Shown here in pieces: positions 1,938 to 32,886 of a stretch of 41,342 nt of DNA. The translations under genes were made by a program, and so were the position numbers. Under the pieces are notes generated by a model. That model saw only the letters and a list, made by a program, of their open reading frames with translations, had not been told where the DNA came from and searched no databases. The stretch is from a virus. How positions within the stretch are numbered: the first letter of the stretch is position 1; every line of letters begins with the position of its first letter. The stretch lies in IMG/VR virus record IMGVR_UViG_3300028025_002236, positions 1 to 41,342 of that record. One strand, written 5' to 3'.

Positions 1938-3766
1938 TGGCAAGAGACATACAAGATATTGCTAATACTTACCAACAACTAAAACAACGATACGCAAATC
2001 GTGATTCACGTTGGTCGGATGTTTTAGAAGTTCGTAAAGGTAATATCAATAACGTTTTCCCAGGATTGTTCCCAGCGGAATATCCTAAACCTATGGTGGC
2101 AAACTTTATTGACGTTGCCGCACGCGACATCGCTGAAGTAATTGCTCCTCTTCCTGCTATTAACTGTTCAGCAACTAACGCTGTTTCTGACCGTGCACGT
2201 ACCCGTGCCGACAAGAGAACAATGATTGCTGCCGGATACCGCGACACTTCACGTCTACAAGTTGAAATGTTCACCGGTGCTGACCGTTACGTAACTTTTG
2301 GTGCTCTACCTTTCATTATTGAAGCTGATTACGAAAACAACACCCCACGTATCCGTTTAGATAACCCTTTTAATTCTTACCCTGAGTTTGACCGTTTTGG
2401 TCGTTTGCTTTCCTACACAAAACTTTACGTTAAAGCCGCACAAGATTTAGTTAACGATTTTCCAGAATACGAATCAGTTATCCTTGGTAAGTTTGAACAA
2501 CGTGGTTCTATGCGCCCTATCCAACTTGTGCGCTATATGGACAAACACGAAACAATTCTTTTCCTACCAGAACGCGCTAACTATGTTCTACAACGTGCTA
2601 AAAATCCTCTTGGTAGATTAAACATTGTTTTCGCTGTTAGACCTGGTGTTGATTCTGATGATGACCAACGTGGACAGTTTGATGATATTCTTTGGGTACA
2701 AGTCGCACGTGCCCGTTTTGCTACTTTACAACTTGAGGCGGCACAGAAATCTGTTCAAGCACCTTTTGCGTTGCCAGCAGATGTTAACGTCCTTGAAATG
2801 GGACCTGACGCAACTATACGTTCCGCATCTCCAGAAAAGATTCGCCGTGTTGATTTAAATGTGCCCCCTGGATTATTCCAAGAATCAGCAATGCTTGACC
2901 AAGAAATGCGTATGGGTGCACGTTACCCTGAAGGACGCCAAGGTGTAAGCCAAGGCAGCATTGTTACAGGTCGTGGCGTTGAAGCCCTTATGGGTGGATT
3001 TGATACACAAGTTAAAACAGCGCAAGCTGTTTTGGCTGAAGCCTTAAAACAAGTATTTGAAATTTGTTTTGAGATGGATGAAAAACTTTTCGGCAATGTT
3101 GAAAAGACTGTGCGCGGCGTTGACGCTGGCGCACCGTATGAGATCACTTATACCCCCAACAAGGATATTGATGGGGATTATACAGTTGATGTCACCTATG
3201 GACTGATGGCCGGATTAAACCCCAACCAGGCTTTGGTATTCGGACTCCAAGCGCGCGGAGACCAATTAATTTCCCGCGACTTCCTCCGCCGTCAGATGCC
3301 GTGGGAAATAAATGTTACACAAGAAGAACAAAAAATTGAAATTGAAAAACTACGCGACTCTCTTGTTGCAGCAATAAGTGGATACGCTCAAGCGATCCCT
3401 TCATTGGCAACACAGGGTCAAGACCCTGGTGAGATCCTTTCACGTATTGCAACAGTAATAGCAGGTAGACAAAAAGGTCAACCTATAGAGCAGGTAATCG
3501 CGGAAGCGTTTGCCCCTCAAGCACCGCCAACTTCTGCTGAGGCTGCAGCCCCTGGTATGGAACAACCCGTCCCCGGTTCCGCAGGTGAGGCTCCCTCCGG
3601 TGGTGCTTCAGGTTTAAGTGCAATAACTGGTGGTCCACGTGGTGTGGTGCCAGGACAAGTGGGACCAGGTGGTAGACCACCTTTACAATCTTTGCTGGCT
3701 GGATTAACCGGTTCTGGCAAACCCACACTATCTTCTAGTGTGACAAGAATGGTCCCTGCGGGCTAA
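1937..3766 (+). CDS. Portal protein
   Basis: This is the dodecameric head vertex channel through which DNA is packaged and ejected, and the docking point for TerL. The call rests on its position directly after terL, its size (609 aa from the chosen start) and its sequence character: an alpha/beta body, a long helical central part with RYPEGRQGVSQGSIVTGRG (about residues 340-358), and a disordered Ala/Pro/Gly-rich C-terminus (residues from about 530). I chose the ATG at 1937 (MARDIQDI) over an in-frame ATG at 1928, because 1937 overlaps the terL stop as TAATG and has CAGGA about 8 bases upstream, whereas the 1928 codon itself overlaps that Shine-Dalgarno. The long flexible C-terminus is typical of portals in actinophages. 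Confidence 0.88.
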   Translation: MARDIQDIANTYQQLKQRYANRDSRWSDVLEVRKGNINNVFPGLFPAEYPKPMVANFIDVAARDIAEVIAPLPAINCSATNAVSDRARTRADKRTMIAAGYRDTSRLQVEMFTGADRYVTFGALPFIIEADYENNTPRIRLDNPFNSYPEFDRFGRLLSYTKLYVKAAQDLVNDFPEYESVILGKFEQRGSMRPIQLVRYMDKHETILFLPERANYVLQRAKNPLGRLNIVFAVRPGVDSDDDQRGQFDDILWVQVARARFATLQLEAAQKSVQAPFALPADVNVLEMGPDATIRSASPEKIRRVDLNVPPGLFQESAMLDQEMRMGARYPEGRQGVSQGSIVTGRGVEALMGGFDTQVKTAQAVLAEALKQVFEICFEMDEKLFGNVEKTVRGVDAGAPYEITYTPNKDIDGDYTVDVTYGLMAGLNPNQALVFGLQARGDQLISRDFLRRQMPWEINVTQEEQKIEIEKLRDSLVAAISGYAQAIPSLATQGQDPGEILSRIATVIAGRQKGQPIEQVIAEAFAPQAPPTSAEAAAPGMEQPVPGSAGEAPSGGASGLSAITGGPRGVVPGQVGPGGRPPLQSLLAGLTGSGKPTLSSSVTRMVPAG

Positions 3767-14014: not shown

Positions 14015-14940
<926 letters not shown>

Positions 14941-14941
<1 letters not shown>

Positions 14942-25738: not shown

Positions 25739-27929
25739 GAGTATCACAGAACCGATAGTTTCCCCAATTGGTATCACCCAAACAAACCAAAACCTTTTCA
25801 CTAACACCAGTAACATTTATGATATTGCTATCGCAGGTGAACCTTTCCTTCTTGCCTCATCAGATAAATACCCTTACCAACGCCAAACAGCTACCTATCG
25901 TAAGCAACAGTTTGATAACACTAAAGAAGTTGGTGAACAATCCTTTGAGGGTTGGTGGCTAAGATCTCAATCTTCTTTCCATAATGGTTCCGGTATTAAC
26001 TATCTTGACCCTTATGTTTCTGAGAATGTTCAGTACAGATTCTTTGACTCAGAAGGTGTTGATGTTTGGACACCAGGTCAAGCTACTCTTTTAAAGAATG
26101 TTTCTTCAACACATCAGGTCACTGGTGCTATTCGTGCTAATGGTAGACCTTGGCAGTTCTTGCGTTCTATTAAATGGGCACAAAACGGTAACACCTATGA
26201 AGGTGTTTTAAATCACGATGAGTTTGATGTTGATAAAGTTTTTCCAACCATAACTGTTTCTATTAACAATAAAGCTCTTACTTCTAACGTTGCCACGTTA
26301 ACTACTACAGCAGCACACGGTTTGTGTGTTGGTATGGAAATCACTATCACTGGTGTTGATGCCACATTTAATGGTACTTATACCATCACTGGTGTTCCAA
26401 CAACAACAACTTTTACTTACGCAAAAACTGCATCTAACGTTACTTCTACTGCTGTGTCACCTGTTGGTACAGGTGTAACAAATGTTATACATTTCATTGA
26501 CTACAACACTGGCACAGATGACCCTGTGTTTTCTATCTGTGATGATGGTACAACAGCATACTGGGTTACTAACGATACTGCTTCAGGTAAACTTGAAGTC
26601 AACAAAAAAATCTTAACTGGTACTGCTTCTACTGCAGCAACAGTAATGTTTACTTCCCCTGGTATCACTGTAACTAACGCTGTAATTGAATATGTTAAAG
26701 AACGTATTGTTATGTGCGCTAATGACAAAGTATACGAGTTCTCTTCAAGCGCATCAGCTTTACCTACAGCTGTGTATACACATAGCGATGATGATCATAT
26801 TTTTACAAGTATTACAGCATCAGGTGCTGCCATTTATGTTGCAGGTTATTCCGGTATTCAATCAAACATTTACAAATTTACTTTGAACTCATCCGGTGTT
26901 ATGCCAACATTGACATCTGCTATCACAGCAGCTGAGTTACCAACTGGTGAAGTTGTTTACAAAATCTATTACTACCTTGGTTATATGATGATTGGTACAT
27001 CTAAAGGTGTACGCATTGCCACAGTTTCCGATGATGGTTCTTTAACCTATGGTCCTTTGATTGTTCATACTGAGCAACCTGTTTACGATTTTGCTGCCAG
27101 AGATAACTTCGTTTGGGCTGCCACAAATGTTAACGGTAAACCTGGTGTGACACGTCTTGATTTATCTCAAGAGATTGAACCGTTACGTTTTGCTTACGCA
27201 AACGATTTGTACTACAACGAGGATCAGAACCGTTCAACCACTGCTTGTGCTTTTGTTAACGGCAGTGAACGTCTTGCTTTCTGTACAAACAATAATGGTA
27301 CCGATGGTTATGTTTACATTGAAGATGCTAACACTTTAACCGAAACAGGTTACATAACAACAGGTTTCATCAGGTATGCAACTGTTGAAAAGAAATACTT
27401 TAAGTTAGTTAAACCACGTTTTAATACACCAATGTATGGTACTTGTGTTATCTCAACTAAAGAAGTTGACGGCGACATTAACTCCATCATTACTATTGCT
27501 GGTTCTGTTCCAGCATTAAACACAGATTTAACAACTAACATAAACACACCGCAAGAAGAACTAGCTTTCAAGTTTACCTTCGGTCGTGACACAACTGACA
27601 CAACTAAGGGTCCAGAGTTTGACGGATACCAGGTTAAGTCTTTACCTGCTGTTAATCGTGCACGCCAATTAACTATCCCGTTACTTAACTTTGATTTTGA
27701 ATCAGATCGTTTTGGTGTGTTAACAGGTCACGAAGGTCGTGCTTGGGAACGTTTACAAACACTTGAAACCATTGAAGCTGCAGGAGACACAGTCATCATC
27801 CAAGACTTCACAACTGGTGAACAGGTCAATGGTGTTATTGAGCAGTTAAGTTTTGAGCGTACTAGCCCACCGGATCGTAGATATACGGGTTTTGGTGGCA
27901 TTGTGTACGTGTCCATACGTACCGTTTAA
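25728..27929 (+). CDS. Large tail protein (733 aa), nozzle/tubular-like
   Basis: A 733-aa beta-rich protein with GEPFLLASSDKYPYQRQTA (about residues 36-54), RKQQFDNTKEVGEQSFEGWW (about 58-77) and repeated blades of strands in the middle (IYKFTLNSSG..., VVYKIYYYLGYMMIG...), suggesting a beta-propeller. It ends with RRYTGFGGIVYVSIRTV. A Big-like insert (about 180-250) contains TVSINNKALTSNVATLTTTA. The opening motif occurs in conserved actinophage tail proteins. I infer a nozzle or tail-knob protein that completes the late operon. GAAGGAG precedes the ATG. Its stop shares the bases TTAA with the convergent HNH gene. Confidence 0.75.
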   Translation: MATESITEPIVSPIGITQTNQNLFTNTSNIYDIAIAGEPFLLASSDKYPYQRQTATYRKQQFDNTKEVGEQSFEGWWLRSQSSFHNGSGINYLDPYVSENVQYRFFDSEGVDVWTPGQATLLKNVSSTHQVTGAIRANGRPWQFLRSIKWAQNGNTYEGVLNHDEFDVDKVFPTITVSINNKALTSNVATLTTTAAHGLCVGMEITITGVDATFNGTYTITGVPTTTTFTYAKTASNVTSTAVSPVGTGVTNVIHFIDYNTGTDDPVFSICDDGTTAYWVTNDTASGKLEVNKKILTGTASTAATVMFTSPGITVTNAVIEYVKERIVMCANDKVYEFSSSASALPTAVYTHSDDDHIFTSITASGAAIYVAGYSGIQSNIYKFTLNSSGVMPTLTSAITAAELPTGEVVYKIYYYLGYMMIGTSKGVRIATVSDDGSLTYGPLIVHTEQPVYDFAARDNFVWAATNVNGKPGVTRLDLSQEIEPLRFAYANDLYYNEDQNRSTTACAFVNGSERLAFCTNNNGTDGYVYIEDANTLTETGYITTGFIRYATVEKKYFKLVKPRFNTPMYGTCVISTKEVDGDINSIITIAGSVPALNTDLTTNINTPQEELAFKFTFGRDTTDTTKGPEFDGYQVKSLPAVNRARQLTIPLLNFDFESDRFGVLTGHEGRAWERLQTLETIEAAGDTVIIQDFTTGEQVNGVIEQLSFERTSPPDRRYTGFGGIVYVSIRTV

Positions 27930-28351
27930 TTATTTATTGTTGCTGACCAATAGTCTGAACCACATTTAGGACAATGTATATCTTTTGCTCTTTGACCATA
28001 TCTAATTGCACCTAACCACAGTTCAAGATTCTTTGGTTCATTATCGTGACGTATGCCATTCTTATGGTGAACTGATTCACCTTTCTTTAATGGACGACCA
28101 AGTATTTCTTCCATTACTACTCGGTGTTCAGGAACCCATTTATCTTTATGTTTAATTAATACATAACCATTAGGCATAATTCTACGTGTTCCATTATCTA
28201 AAACAACACCTATATAAGTTTTGTTTTTGTTGTATTCTCTACCAATTTCTACAACACAAGATGAACAATGTTTAGCTACAGATCTTTTACCTATGGTTTC
28301 TTTGGTAAATTTCTTGTTACATCTTTTACATACCAGTTTATGAACATTCAT
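27926..28351 (-). CDS. HNH homing-type endonuclease
   Basis: A 141-aa free-standing nuclease. The HNH active site is ESVHHKNGIRHDNEPKNLEL (about residues 92-111), preceded by HRVVMEEILGRPLKKGE. Structural zinc-site cysteines occur at C8/C11 and C29/C32, and another pair (CPKC, 127-130) lies near the end. It is the only minus-strand gene in the first 36 kb and sits at the end of the late operon, the usual site of a mobile intronless homing endonuclease. No intron is evident in its neighbours. A putative promoter lies at 28394-28399. Confidence 0.9.
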   Translation of the reverse strand: MNVHKLVCKRCNKKFTKETIGKRSVAKHCSSCVVEIGREYNKNKTYIGVVLDNGTRRIMPNGYVLIKHKDKWVPEHRVVMEEILGRPLKKGESVHHKNGIRHDNEPKNLELWLGAIRYGQRAKDIHCPKCGSDYWSATINN

Positions 28352-28393
28352 TAAATACCTTTTCTACCTATTAAAAACGGTCTTTTAAGGTCT

Positions 28394-28399
28394 ATTATA
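28394..28399 (-). promoter_or_regulatory. Putative -10 box for the HNH gene
   Basis: On the minus strand this reads TATAAT, a perfect -10, with GTG before it. The best -35 is TTAACC, 15 bases upstream and inside the terminator loop, which is a poor match. It lies about 43 bases before the HNH start codon. An independent promoter makes sense for a gene facing against its neighbours. Confidence 0.4.
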
Positions 28400-28405
28400 C
28401 ACTAC

Positions 28406-28441
28406 ACCCTCAACGGTTAACCCCGTTGGGGGTCTTTTTTT
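28406..28441 (+). terminator. Strong terminator of the late operon
   Basis: The stem ACCCTCAACGG (28406-28416) pairs with CCGTTGGGGGT (28423-28433) over 11 bp with one G-T pair around a TTAACC loop, followed by C and seven T. Late transcripts coming through the antisense of the HNH gene would stop here, insulating the downstream replication operon. Confidence 0.88.
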
Positions 28442-28618
28442 GTTTTTCAAATACTATGTTTATTACTCGGAACCGCCCAAAGCGGTTCCTCGTTAACGGG
28501 TCGCTCGCACATACTCACCGGCTCGCTCCGAGTATAATCGTATTGTCAAATACTTAGCAAGCGACACGCTTGGTGCGTGTCGTTAAACGAATTACAAACT
28601 TGTGATATTGTGAACCTT
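28442..28618. promoter_or_regulatory. Palindrome-rich control region before the replication operon
   Basis: No gene was found here. Three inverted repeats are visible: GGAACCGC/GCGGTTCC (28469-28476 with 28482-28489), nested inside TACTCGG/CCGAGTA (28464-28470 with 28528-28534), and CGACACGC/GCGTGTCG (28562-28569 with 28575-28582). A perfect TATAAT occurs at 28533-28538 without a clear -35. The region is more GC-rich than its surroundings. It is a candidate operator cluster or replication origin. Confidence 0.6.
28583..28611 (+). promoter_or_regulatory. Putative promoter giving a leaderless transcript
   Basis: TTAAAC (28583-28588) and TATTGT (28606-28611) are separated by exactly 17 bases. 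The -10 is preceded by TGA, giving an extended -10. The start point would fall near 28617-28619, that is on the ATG at 28619, which has no Shine-Dalgarno. The hairpin 28562-28582 abuts the -35. The match to consensus is partial. Confidence 0.42.
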
Positions 28619-28801
28619 ATGGAACCAATCATCGGGCACAGAAGTTTCTCATCATTCACCTCCTGGATGAAATGCGGCAAAGCCTGGCAACTAGAACGCC
28701 AGCTACAAGCACCACAAATACCTGCGTGGTATTTCCTCGGAGGATCAGCATTCCACGCGGCAGTAGAACAATTTCTAAAAGAACAATATGAAACCGATTG
28801 A
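28619..28801 (+). CDS. N-terminal fragment of a RecB/Cas4-like nuclease
   Basis: A 60-aa ORF corresponding to the helical N-terminal part of PD-(D/E)XK (RecB/Cas4/PDDEXK_1) nucleases. SFSSFTSWMKCGKAWQLE (residues 9-26) contains the usual first Fe-S cysteine (C19), and FLGGSAFHAAVE (39-50) contains the motif-I histidine (H46). It stops at 28801, before any catalytic residue. The missing body is encoded 357 bases downstream at 29159-29821. There is no Shine-Dalgarno; the ATG may be leaderless. Either the two pieces assemble in trans or the nuclease is broken. Confidence 0.72.
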   Translation: MEPIIGHRSFSSFTSWMKCGKAWQLERQLQAPQIPAWYFLGGSAFHAAVEQFLKEQYETD

Positions 28802-29003
28802 CGAACTTGTACCTGATAAATCAAAACCAAAATTTGATTTAAGAGGAATACCAACACACGTATGCTTATGTGGTTGTAAAGTTTGGAATCTTAAAGTAAT
28901 GTTTGAAGACAACGCAATCTCAATGTATTTTTTGGATATGTTTTGTTCCGCTTGTGGTAGCCCTGCTACTGCACCAACAGCAGAGGAATTAGATTGTGAT
29001 TAA
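28788..29003 (+). CDS. Small zinc-ribbon-like actinophage protein
   Basis: A 71-aa protein with IDELVPDKSKPKFDLRGIPT (residues 4-23), then HVCLCGCKVWNLKV and FCSACGSPATAPTAEE. The paired cysteines (CLCGC and CSAC) form a likely zinc ribbon. The opening DELxPDKSxPKFDLRG is very characteristic of a protein found in many actinobacterial phages near replication genes (from memory). It overlaps the end of the nuclease N-fragment by 14 bases and thus interrupts the nuclease locus. Confidence 0.78.
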   Translation: MKPIDELVPDKSKPKFDLRGIPTHVCLCGCKVWNLKVMFEDNAISMYFLDMFCSACGSPATAPTAEELDCD

Positions 29004-29166
29004 GTTTTCTTATCAAACAAATAACTCATTAGAAAAAGAGTTACGAAATAAGATAAGTAAAGAAATTGAACAACTACCTTTTTTCTCACATCCAGAATGT
29101 TGTAAGTTAACTAACGAAGTTGTAATACAATCAGTATTAAAAATAACAAAGGGTCAATATGTCTAA
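28996..29166 (+). CDS. Small protein inserted in the nuclease locus
   Basis: A 56-aa ORF starting with GTG; AGAGGA at 28982-28987 is a good ribosome-binding site. The sequence runs MIKFSYQTNNSLEKELRNKI and then EQLPFFSHPECCKLTNEVV, with a CC pair. It overlaps the previous gene by 8 bases and the nuclease C-fragment by 8 bases. No family is recognised. The overlaps on both sides argue that it is translated. Confidence 0.55.
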   Translation: MIKFSYQTNNSLEKELRNKISKEIEQLPFFSHPECCKLTNEVVIQSVLKITKGQYV

Positions 29167-29821
29167 AGATTTAGCAATCAAGTATTGGAACGCCCATTTC
29201 CAAACTATGATTGATGAAAAAGCAGCAGCCACAGACACTATCCCTTCTGCTTGGCGTGCTGGCGGTCGCGCCACCAAAGCGTATCCGGAAAAAGAAAACG
29301 ACATTTGGTGGCAAGACAACGGACCTAAAATGGTTGACAACTTTATCCAATGGTGGAAAAATAATAAATGGTCAGTGTGGAATCACAATGGTGTTCTACA
29401 AGTTGAACCAGAATACAATGTGATGTTTGGTGACATACTTGTTAAATCTTTTATTGATCTTGTAGCTGTCACACCTGATGGTGATATTGTTATTGTTGAT
29501 TACAAGTCAGGTGTTTATATGCCTGACACAAATATGCAGTTAGGTTTATATGCTTGTGCTGTCCAAAGTGTAACCGGTGTTAGACCAACAAAAGGTTACT
29601 TCTATAACGCCCGACAGGGAATAATGGAAGATGCAGGGGACTTATCACGTTGGACAGTGCAACTATTTACAGAACTATTTGCACAATTTGAGAAAGGGAT
29701 TCAGGCAGAAATTTTTTTGCCAAATCTTGGTATGATGTGCAAGTCCTGTTCTGTTAAAGATTATTGCCACGCTTACGGCGGGGAGCTGGCAGTAAAGTAT
29801 GACCCACTTGCCACTCTATAG
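29159..29821 (+). CDS. C-terminal catalytic part of a RecB/Cas4-like nuclease
   Basis: A 220-aa protein with the PD-(D/E)XK core: E83, the motif-II Asp in SFIDLVAV (D100), motif III VDYKSG (D114, K116) and the QxxxY motif MQLGLYA (Q127, Y131). The C-terminus carries CKSCSVKDYCHAYG (C194, C197, C203), matching the last three Fe-S cysteines of Cas4/AddB-type nucleases. The first cysteine and the motif-I histidine are on the separate 60-aa protein at 28619. Like Cas4 it would be a single-strand exonuclease used in phage recombination or replication; here it is not linked to CRISPR genes. AAAGGGTCAAT precedes the ATG. Confidence 0.85.
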   Translation: MSKDLAIKYWNAHFQTMIDEKAAATDTIPSAWRAGGRATKAYPEKENDIWWQDNGPKMVDNFIQWWKNNKWSVWNHNGVLQVEPEYNVMFGDILVKSFIDLVAVTPDGDIVIVDYKSGVYMPDTNMQLGLYACAVQSVTGVRPTKGYFYNARQGIMEDAGDLSRWTVQLFTELFAQFEKGIQAEIFLPNLGMMCKSCSVKDYCHAYGGELAVKYDPLATL

Positions 29822-29833
29822 AGAAGGAAAAGA

Positions 29834-30208
29834 ATGAGCGCAGAAACACCAGGAGTGAAGACACAACTTAACTTCAAAACCTCACAAGGTACATTAGTTA
29901 ATATTTATCTTTACTCTTATGATGAAGAAGAAATCAAAGGTGCATTAACAGCGATTGCTAATGTGACACCTGAGATTAACGCAGTGGAAACACTGTACAA
30001 CGCACAAGGTGCACTACGTGCATCCCTTGGTGCAACACCTGTTGAACAACCAAGAACACAATCAGCACCTGCTGATGGTGCTAAAGCTTGTAAGCACGGT
30101 GAGATGAAATTCCGTACCGGTTCATCTGCTAAAGGACCTTGGAAGGGTTATTTCTGTCCTTCACCAAAGGGCACAGCAGATCAGTGCGAACCACAATTCA
30201 TTAGATAA
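29834..30208 (+). CDS. Small recombination/replication-region protein with Cys/His tail
   Basis: A 124-aa protein. The N-terminal 60 residues form a beta-beta-alpha unit (QLNFKTSQGTLVNIYLYSYD). A Pro/Ala linker leads to a possible zinc module, ACKHGEMKFRTGSSAKGPWK (about 85-104), followed by GYFCPSPKGTADQCEPQFIR. The module C-x-H-G-x-M-x(n)-C-x(n)-C with GPWKGYFCP recurs in actinophage proteins adjacent to RecB-like nucleases (memory). It may be a single-stranded-DNA-binding partner; not shown. GAGAAGGAAAAGA precedes the ATG. Confidence 0.72.
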   Translation: MSAETPGVKTQLNFKTSQGTLVNIYLYSYDEEEIKGALTAIANVTPEINAVETLYNAQGALRASLGATPVEQPRTQSAPADGAKACKHGEMKFRTGSSAKGPWKGYFCPSPKGTADQCEPQFIR

Positions 30209-30224
30209 TTATTAGGGAGCAGAA

Positions 30225-31049
30225 GTGTTAACCATTAAGCAAGCTGCTGTGCGGCATCTTGATGAACCACAACTGCTTCCTGATATTTTTCCTTCATTAA
30301 AAAAAGAAGGCATAAGGTTCAGACGCGGTCAGGTAACAATGATCGCTGGTCAACCTAACAGTGGTAAATCTTTACTTGCATTATTTTATGGCATTAAAGC
30401 AGAGGTTCCAACGTTGTATGTGTCTGCTGACACTGACGCCTACACCACAAGTATTCGTGCTGCTGCTGTTATCACAGGGCATATGGCAAACACTATTGAA
30501 GAATCTTTTAAGAATGATGGTCAAGAATTTTATACTAAAGAACTTGCATCATTGAAACATATGGAATTTTCTTTTGACCCTTCACCAACATTAGATGATG
30601 TTGATCTTATGGTTAAAGCTTATGGTGAAAAGTATGGTGAGTGGCCTCACCTAATTATTATTGACAACCTTATGAACGTGTCCGCTTTGCACGACAACGA
30701 ATGGACTGGTATGCGTGACATTATGAAAGCCTGCCATCACATTGCTCGCGAAACAGATTCAGCTATTTTTATTTTGCACCATACTTCTGAGGCTGAGGGT
30801 GAGCCAACACGTCCACCTTCAAGGCGTGCTATTCAAGGTAAAGTTTCACAACTACCTGAAATGATTTTGACAGTTGCTATGGAACCTGAGTATTCAGAGT
30901 TTCGTATTGCTTGTGTTAAAAATAGGTTTGCTAAACATTCAGCAATGGGTGATAAGTGGATAGCGTTAAAGGTTGATGCTAGTCGTATGACGTTGAAAGA
31001 CGAAGACCTTATGCAACAGGCTTTAAGATTCCAAGGAGTTCAAATATAA
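30225..31049 (+). CDS. RecA/DnaB-like ATPase (helicase-type)
   Basis: A 274-aa P-loop ATPase with Walker A GQPNSGKS (residues 42-49), Walker B LIIIDN (143-148) and a sensor-like FILHHTSE (about 186-193) followed by a GKVSQLPEM loop. This fits the SF4 (DnaB/KaiC/RecA) fold. It is shorter than DnaB (about 450 aa) and lacks the N-terminal primase-binding domain, so it may be a minimal replicative helicase or a recombinase. Linkage to primase and nucleases supports a replication role. The start is GTG with AGGGAGC upstream. Confidence 0.85.
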   Translation: MLTIKQAAVRHLDEPQLLPDIFPSLKKEGIRFRRGQVTMIAGQPNSGKSLLALFYGIKAEVPTLYVSADTDAYTTSIRAAAVITGHMANTIEESFKNDGQEFYTKELASLKHMEFSFDPSPTLDDVDLMVKAYGEKYGEWPHLIIIDNLMNVSALHDNEWTGMRDIMKACHHIARETDSAIFILHHTSEAEGEPTRPPSRRAIQGKVSQLPEMILTVAMEPEYSEFRIACVKNRFAKHSAMGDKWIALKVDASRMTLKDEDLMQQALRFQGVQI

Positions 31050-31402
31050 TGTCGGCTAAAAATAAAGCCAAAGGTTCAAAGTTTGAAACAGATGTAATGA
31101 AATGGTTACGTTCCAAAGGTTACACAGCGGAACGTTTACGTCAAGCTGGTGCAAAAGATGAAGGCGATCTTGTTGTTTATGTTTCAGGTGTGCCTTACTT
31201 GTTTGAATGCAAAGCAACCATTAAGTTAGACCTACCACAATTTTGGAGAGAACTACAAGCAGAAGTGATAAACTATGCTGAAGCAAGAAACTTAAACGTT
31301 GGACCTATTGGTTATGTTGTTGTCAAAAGACGCAACGGTGGTATTGAAGATGCTTGGGTTATCCAATCATTAGACCAATGGAGCAAACAGTACAAACCGT
31401 GA
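31049..31402 (+). CDS. Holliday-junction-resolvase-type PD-(D/E)XK nuclease
   Basis: A 117-aa nuclease. Motifs are KGSKFETDVMKWLRSKGY (E13 in helix 1), AKDEGDLVVY (D40) and LFECKAT (E53, K55), the Hjc/Hje-like arrangement. The size matches archaeal- and phage-type resolvases. It would resolve branched replication or packaging intermediates. It overlaps the upstream ATPase by one base (TAATG) and the methyltransferase by up to 25 bases. It might look like the nuclease half of a restriction system, but its length and motifs fit a resolvase better. Confidence 0.8.
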   Translation: MSAKNKAKGSKFETDVMKWLRSKGYTAERLRQAGAKDEGDLVVYVSGVPYLFECKATIKLDLPQFWRELQAEVINYAEARNLNVGPIGYVVVKRRNGGIEDAWVIQSLDQWSKQYKP

Positions 31403-32040
31403 AACCAAAACTATTAGATTTGTATTGCAAAGCTGGAGGTGCCAGTATGGGTTATCACCTTGCAGGTTTTGATGTTATAGGTATTGATAACAAAAAACAA
31501 AAACGATACCCATTTACTTTCATTCAAGCAGATGCTTTAGAAGTGTTGCAAGATATAGATTATTTAAAAACATTTGATGTGCTCGCAGGTTCACCTCCTT
31601 GCCAAACACATTCTGCAACAAAACATTTACGCAACGCTCAAGGTAAATCAACAGACAAAGTAGATTTGATACCTCAAACAAGAGAAGGTTTTATTGCATC
31701 AGGTAAACCTTATGTTATTGAGAATGTTCCTGGGGCACCTTTGAAGAATCCTGTGGTAATGTGTGGTTCATCATTTAATCTTAAAGTTCGTAGACACAGA
31801 TTGTTTGAATCAACTTTTGAATTAAAAGAGTTACCTTGTGATCATAAAACTCAAGGTAAACCTGTTGGAATATATGGTTCTATGCGTGATGAGATACCTA
31901 ACGGTGGTCATACTGCTAAGACTATTGAACAAGCACGTGAAGCAATGGGTATTGATTGGATGATTTGGGGAGAACTTGTTGAAGCTATACCACCTGTGTA
32001 TACAAAATATTTAGGTGAACAAATAATTCAACAACTATGA
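31378..32040 (+). CDS. DNA (cytosine-5) methyltransferase
   Basis: A 220-aa enzyme that methylates cytosine C5 using S-adenosylmethionine. The motifs are LLDLYCKAGGASMGYH (motif I, residues 12-27), GSPPCQ with catalytic C75 (motif IV), VIENV (motif VI, 113-117) and RRHRLFES (motif VIII, 138-145). The protein is much shorter than cellular Dcm/M.HhaI because little is left for a target-recognition domain, as is common in phage orphan methyltransferases. It probably protects phage DNA from host restriction or marks replicated DNA. The start is uncertain: ATG 31378 or GTG 31399, the latter overlapping the previous TGA as GTGA. Confidence 0.9.
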   Translation: MEQTVQTVKPKLLDLYCKAGGASMGYHLAGFDVIGIDNKKQKRYPFTFIQADALEVLQDIDYLKTFDVLAGSPPCQTHSATKHLRNAQGKSTDKVDLIPQTREGFIASGKPYVIENVPGAPLKNPVVMCGSSFNLKVRRHRLFESTFELKELPCDHKTQGKPVGIYGSMRDEIPNGGHTAKTIEQAREAMGIDWMIWGELVEAIPPVYTKYLGEQIIQQL

Positions 32041-32399
32041 ATGAGAAGCACGATCTTGAAACTGTAGTTAAACACTACGGTGGAAAAGTAAGAACTAGCA
32101 CAGGGTGGCAAGCCACCAAATGTGTGATACATCCTGATGCACACGCATCAGCAACCGTGAACACACGGGAACAACTTTACAGTTGTTTTGTGTGTGACCT
32201 TTACGGTGATGTGTACGAACTGATTAAAAAAAAGGAAGGGATAGAGTTCAAAGATGCTGTCGCAAGAGCAGAAAGCATTACTAACGGAAACCGCAGCACG
32301 GTATTACGAAGCACTAAACGCAGAGACAGCCTCTTACCTCAAATCAAGGGGAATAAGCAAAGAGGTGGCCGCTACATTCCTGCTAGGTACAGTGACTGA
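32037..32399 (+). CDS. Primase zinc-binding (CHC2-type) protein
   Basis: A 120-aa protein with TKCVIHPDAHASATVNTREQ and YSCFVCDLYGDVYELIKKKE, giving a C-x2-H ... C-x2-C zinc finger of the DnaG N-terminal type (about residues 28-52) that recognises template and stabilises primer synthesis. The last 50 residues are read in a different frame over the start of the TOPRIM gene and are unlike any primase sequence. It overlaps the methyltransferase stop (ATGA). It is thus the zinc half of a two-gene primase. Confidence 0.82.
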   Translation: MNEKHDLETVVKHYGGKVRTSTGWQATKCVIHPDAHASATVNTREQLYSCFVCDLYGDVYELIKKKEGIEFKDAVARAESITNGNRSTVLRSTKRRDSLLPQIKGNKQRGGRYIPARYSD

Positions 32400-32886
32400 T
32401 CCTGCACCTGGACACGAACACGCTGTTGGTGCGCTGAGTATTCCGTATCTTACTAAAGCTGGTGTTGTTGGTATTAAGTTTCGTAAAACTGATGGTGGTC
32501 AACCAAAATACATTTGGCCAACAGGGCAGAAGATTGGGATGTTTAACGTTAACGATTTAAGTTTGGACACAGAAACTATGTGTATCTGTGAGGGTGAGAT
32601 TGACACAATAATTTTGTCAGGGATGTGTGGTATACCTGCTGTGGGTGTGGCCGGTGTAACACAGTGGAAAGACTGGTTTCCTATGATGCTTGAAGGATAC
32701 AAACGTATATTTGTTTTTGCTGATAATGATGTTAAAGAAGATGGCCGTAACCCTGGGATGGAACTGGCTAAAAGGATTAAAGAAGATTTAAACAGTGCAG
32801 TAGTAGTTAACCTACCTGAAAACAAAGATGTTAACGATATGTTTTTACGTGAAGGTGCTGACTGGTTTAAGGAGAAGATAGCGTGA
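32254..32886 (+). CDS. Primase TOPRIM-domain protein
   Basis: A 210-aa catalytic half of the DnaG-like primase. TOPRIM motifs are CICEGEID (E113, E115, D117), VFADND (157-159) and KDVNDMF (191-197). The N-terminal part (about residues 25-100) matches the alpha/beta RNA-polymerase lead-in (YLKSRGISKEVAATFLLG, SIPYLTKAGVVGIKFR). The ATG at 32254 lies inside the zinc-protein gene, in the +1 frame; an in-frame stop (TAG, 32242-32244) precedes it, so it must start within the overlap, with GAG at 32244-32246 as a weak ribosome-binding site. Helicase-interacting C-terminal domains are absent. Confidence 0.88.
   Translation: MLSQEQKALLTETAARYYEALNAETASYLKSRGISKEVAATFLLGTVTDPAPGHEHAVGALSIPYLTKAGVVGIKFRKTDGGQPKYIWPTGQKIGMFNVNDLSLDTETMCICEGEIDTIILSGMCGIPAVGVAGVTQWKDWFPMMLEGYKRIFVFADNDVKEDGRNPGMELAKRIKEDLNSAVVVNLPENKDVNDMFLREGADWFKEKIA

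Follow-up and report, generated by a model that had tools for sequence, protein, structure and literature searches.

A Cas4/RecB-type phage nuclease domain divided between two conserved open reading frames

Cas4 (Sso0001), the AddB nuclease domain, AdnA, Dna2 and ACE1 carry one N-terminal and three C-terminal cysteines in addition to a RecB-type PD-(D/E)XK core. Each of these nucleases is a single chain, and we know of no split version of any of them; the Fe-S staple is known for holding together one nuclease chain. In archaeal Cas4, the cluster is formed by one N-terminal and three C-terminal cysteines, and any single Cys-to-Ala exchange renders the protein insoluble (PMC3466216). Among phages, the closest described proteins are the single-chain actinophage “Cas4 exonucleases” (PHROG 1870/69; e.g., Leviosa gp36 and MrGordo gp72); in Leviosa (a Propionibacterium phage), MrGordo (a Mycobacterium phage) and Archetta, a DnaB-like helicase is encoded a few genes downstream.

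The division of one ancestral gene into two, with DNA inserted in between, is a feature of several other phage enzymes, namely Aeh1 NrdA, Aeromonas phage 25 gp43A/B and T4 gp39/gp60. The inserts of these genes include homing endonucleases, and the split forms of NrdA and gp43 are active enzymes (PMC2988022).

The locus discussed here combines features of all these systems. It shares the RecB-type core and the cysteine arrangement with the Cas4 group as well as the domain, the motifs, the four cysteines and the downstream DnaB-like helicase with the actinophage exonucleases; unlike both, it is divided over two chains, at about 30% identity to the actinophage proteins. From the split NrdA, gp43 and gp39/gp60 enzymes it differs in that the break lies in an Fe-S nuclease, the cargo consists of small genes that do not encode endonucleases, and loci without cargo, in which the ORFs overlap, are common. 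While the protein family and split phage enzymes as such are known, what appears to be new is the conserved splitting of a Cas4-type Fe-S nuclease with putative ligands on two chains and with variable cargo; the open literature searched, subscription journals being largely outside it, contained no report of a split Cas4/RecB-type phage nuclease.

One nuclease domain on two open reading frames

The window, i.e., the whole stretch of DNA that was analysed, is a virus record of 41,342 bases, of which the region 28619–29821 was studied (Table 1). The ORFs of 60, 71, 56 and 220 amino acids found there overlap one after the other and open a replication/recombination operon running from left to right; 357 bases (28802–29158) holding two small ORFs lie between the halves of the nuclease. 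The N-terminal half (N-half) reads MEPIIGHRSFSSFTSWMKC19GKAW...GGSAFH46AAVEQF, and its start codon may lie upstream of 28619, with GTG 28577 as a candidate. The C-terminal half (C-half) is followed by the gp49-like gene, the DnaB-like helicase and a RusA-like resolvase, and a terminase is encoded at one end of the window.

Table 1. Features of the window, with coordinates, strand and distinguishing traits
Feature	Position	Strand	Remarks
Collagen-like Gly-x-Thr repeat protein	14015–14941	+	amid likely virion structural genes
HNH_3 endonuclease with zinc ribbon	27926–28351	-	directly upstream of the split gene
N-half of Cas4/RecB-like exonuclease, 60 aa	28619–28801	+	C19, first putative Fe-S ligand; motif I GGSAFH with H46
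Passenger 1, zinc-ribbon-like protein, 71 aa	28788–29003	+	two CxC/CxxC cysteine pairs; 14-base overlap with N-half
Passenger 2, 56 aa, no assigned family	28996–29166	+	seen only in the window and L024
C-half of exonuclease, 220 aa	29159–29821	+	FID100L; VD114YK116SG (D114-x-K116); Q127LGLY131 (QxxxY); C194/C197/C203
Mycobacteriophage L5/D29 gp49-like C-terminus	29834–30208	+	conserved neighbour
DnaB-like helicase/RecA-fold ATPase	30225–31049	+	conserved neighbour in split and fused loci
ORF with C5 cytosine methyltransferase-like motifs	31354–32040	+	SPPCQ, ENV; soon after the nuclease operon
Zinc-finger primase-like ORF	32037–32399	+	overlaps the next ORF by about 146 bases, different frames
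Toprim ORF	32254–32886	+	

The 60-aa and 220-aa products correspond to complementary parts of a single Cas4/RecB/AddB-type nuclease domain. In the PHROGs collection, the N-half matches phrog_69 (E 1.6e-10) and positions 14–66 of phrog_1870, of which the C-half covers positions 78–296 (E 1.9e-39). Likewise, the 247 positions of the Pfam family PF12705 are shared out between the N-half (positions 3–51, E 0.0029, which is under the family cut-off) and the C-half (79–247, E 2.7e-12), whereas the intact viral relative L112 spans positions 2–246 in a single chain. Annotation pipelines can therefore miss the split. In the cultured phage LanE43AprF5, the 61-aa N-half clears the PF12705 cut-off (E 2.6e-7, positions 1–48).

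Profile matches, active-site residues and the one-plus-three cysteines thus place the pair among the Cas4/RecB-type PD-(D/E)XK nucleases (PF12705 / PHROG 1870), encoded by two ORFs instead of one polypeptide in the window as well as in each of the 168 split loci analysed. The neighbours in the window are phage replication/recombination genes, with no cas1/cas2 alongside as for a CRISPR-associated Cas4. A previous sequence-only reading of the window had given the coordinates, lengths, motifs and the 357-base gap with its two small genes correctly, and its claim that the two products make one complete nuclease agrees with the complementary profile matches, which are far beyond chance. It had also assigned the 71-aa product to a zinc-ribbon family; the gene is clearly conserved, but the ORF has no Pfam or PHROG match.

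Conservation of the split and of both halves

IMG/VR was scanned with three queries (N-half, C-half and a distant C-half), which yielded 272 loci, including the window and the cultured records. Separate ORFs were present in 248 of these and a single ORF in 12, the other 12 being truncated by the contig end. Where at least 600 nt were available upstream of the C-half (235 loci), 223 loci were split and 12 fused, a fraction which gives no estimate of the prevalence of the fused form because the loci were retrieved as best matches to queries that are themselves split; in none of the 235 did a C-half lack its N-half. A megablast search of cultured phages gave no match, and a scan of genome contigs returned no relatives. 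Dropping identical sequences and locus L104 left 168 non-identical split loci, in 91 of which the two ORFs overlap or are adjacent, while 73 carry a zinc-ribbon gene and 4 carry other inserts between the halves. L104 (843–1394) was rejected as a true split, since it is a single frameshifted copy inside a fused clade and a probable indel.

Two of the records, OX376641 and OX376640, are the genomes of the Planktophila phages LanE43AprF5 and LanE43AprE7, which were isolated on, and shown to lyse, “Ca. Planktophila” LanE-43, a common freshwater actinobacterium (PMC10202952). Both carry the split in the form of a 61-aa ORF (2257–2442) and a 202-aa ORF (2426–3034; loci L031 and L272). Each of the two records has a single matching place, so that no second intact copy of the nuclease was found in either genome; phages with the split can thus complete a productive lytic cycle.

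Throughout the 168 non-identical split loci, the residues expected of an active Fe-S nuclease are retained. H46, D100, D114, K116, Q127 and Y131 are kept in 168/168, C19 in 165/165 alignable loci, and C194, C197 and C203 in 167/167 alignable loci. Both halves clearly evolve under purifying selection, with a median pairwise dN/dS of about 0.17 for the N-half, a short gene whose values are noisy (90th percentile 0.69; pairs non-independent), and of about 0.11 for the C-half; only pairs with a dS of 0.15–1.2 were used, and the last six N-half codons were excluded on account of the ORF overlap.

Probable assembly in trans and competing readings

Alignment with fused relatives puts the break between ‘...GGKAVHECTEYYD’ and ‘...FKERWEHNY’. 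In the AlphaFold model of the fused L112 (pTM 0.78), which matches ACE1, AdnA, Dna2 and AddB in the PDB, with weaker matches to EXO5 and Cas4, this point falls in the loop between helix 31–48 and helix 55–70; because the break is interhelical, the fold could close without a peptide link. The split sequence of the window itself was modelled as a tethered fold, consisting of the N-half, a 120-residue read-through linker and the C-half, using an alignment (A6) of in-frame read-throughs of 12 loci (the window and 11 relatives). This replaced the tethered alignments A3 and A5, which contained mixed half-chains and were dropped since the N-half was misplaced. The resulting model is of moderate quality (pTM 0.60), with pLDDT values of about 85 for the motif-I helix 41–60, mostly 75–90 for the core of the C-half, 54–68 for the N-terminal 30 residues and below 50 for the linker. 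Foldseek did not show the position of the N-half in this model, which is compatible with packing of the halves and no proof of it.

On this basis, we regard it as highly probable that the two ORFs together specify a single Cas4/AddB-type exonuclease whose chains assemble in trans. The small chain would contribute helix 1 together with C19 as the N-terminal Fe-S ligand and H46 of motif I, while the large chain would provide the D-(D)-x-K catalytic core, QxxxY and the remaining three cysteines; neither the [4Fe-4S] staple nor the catalytic metal site would be complete until the two chains bind after translation. Physical association, a shared cluster and nuclease activity are what we infer from these sequence features. 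By analogy with the insolubility of the archaeal Cas4 Cys-to-Ala variants, the C-half alone should be unstable. It is also likely, with somewhat more room for doubt, that a widespread environmental actinophage lineage carries an obligate two-subunit Cas4-type exonuclease with both metal sites formed across chains and with the split as a permissive site for the insertion and exchange of passengers. If so, the Fe-S staple would join two chains in a natural split nuclease, whose activity would depend on assembly.

Several other readings of the locus have to be weighed against this assembly in trans. The two chains might have separate roles, the large one acting by itself, possibly with the help of a different metal or partner, while the small one would serve as a regulator or a DNA-binding peptide; the passenger genes indeed force separate translation, and the core catalytic D-x-K sits in the C-half, but the N-half keeps an invariant fourth cysteine and the motif-I histidine, which are relevant only in a joint fold, and it is lost from no locus, so that this reading is unlikely. 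Programmed +1 frameshifting, which would join the overlapping ORFs into a continuous nuclease and make their separation only apparent, could draw on the position of the C-half in the +1 frame in 115/118 cargo-free, small-gap loci, where the overlap of most ORF pairs ranges from a few to about 23 nt. However, the overlaps vary in sequence and length without a common slippery site, each C-half has a start codon of its own, most commonly 5 nt ahead of the N-half stop, the window region shows no known intron family, and frameshifting is unable to join halves across the 177–955 nt of coding cargo in 77 loci, where they are equally conserved. We therefore consider such frameshifting improbable.

Even less can be said for a broken and decaying gene or for an error of assembly or sequencing. 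Early decay would resemble a split gene with insertions, yet purifying selection and invariant motifs persist across loci down to 33–47% identity, none of the 168 non-identical split loci shows motif decay, and cultured lytic phages carry the split; degradation is thus strongly disfavoured, and we give it very little weight. An error is suggested at most by L104, whose frameshift resembles a simple indel. It is contradicted by the number of non-identical sequences, more than 160 drawn from many contigs, and by two isolate genomes, and since the cultured lytic phages are split, we hold this reading, which the sequence-only reading had named as one that would dissolve the split, to be ruled out. 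The preference of that reading for function over inactivation is supported by the kept motifs, by the split in the cultured phages and by the break, which lies in one and the same loop in those split relatives that were examined; the intact homologues that it had proposed to look for do exist, as single-chain actinophage exonucleases and as fused relatives.

Origin of the split and its passenger genes

Between the halves, the inserts of the 77 cargo-bearing loci usually comprise a zinc-ribbon gene and none to two others. Cargo families in the relatives are the zinc ribbon, a protein of up to 86 aa (50 ORFs) and proteins of 73–77 aa (4) and 107–114 aa (3), with examples at L074:1861–2076, L076:2305–2502, L046:553–774 and L256:2182–2511. 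A relative of the zinc-ribbon gene is present elsewhere in the LanE43AprF5 genome and, in 7 of the 12 fused loci, upstream on the opposite strand.

In the simplest history, a frameshift or a short overlapping pair would have arisen at the tolerant interhelical loop as an initial step, and the resulting site would then have taken in zinc-ribbon and other passenger genes at no cost, which would explain their presence between the halves. As 91 loci have meeting or overlapping ORFs versus 77 with inserts, the split probably preceded the entry of the passengers, an order that we infer. The tree requires two changes between the fused and the split state, but the AU test does not reject a single split clade (p 0.127). 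Taken as a progression, the fused form, the split form with overlapping ORFs and the split form with one to three cargo genes would provide a clean series for genes that fall into pieces and then become insertion sites.

Homing by the HNH gene upstream of the N-half was rejected as the cause of the split, since this gene lies outside it and is found nearby in only one other locus (L003). The inserts between the halves are zinc-ribbon and small uncharacterised genes, which sets them apart from genes in pieces with homing endonucleases, and Rfam gave no intron or other RNA in the window region 27500–30500. The HNH_3 gene may itself be a free-standing homing endonuclease. Further downstream in the window, the overlapping primase-like and Toprim ORFs are possibly a second enzyme encoded in two genes.
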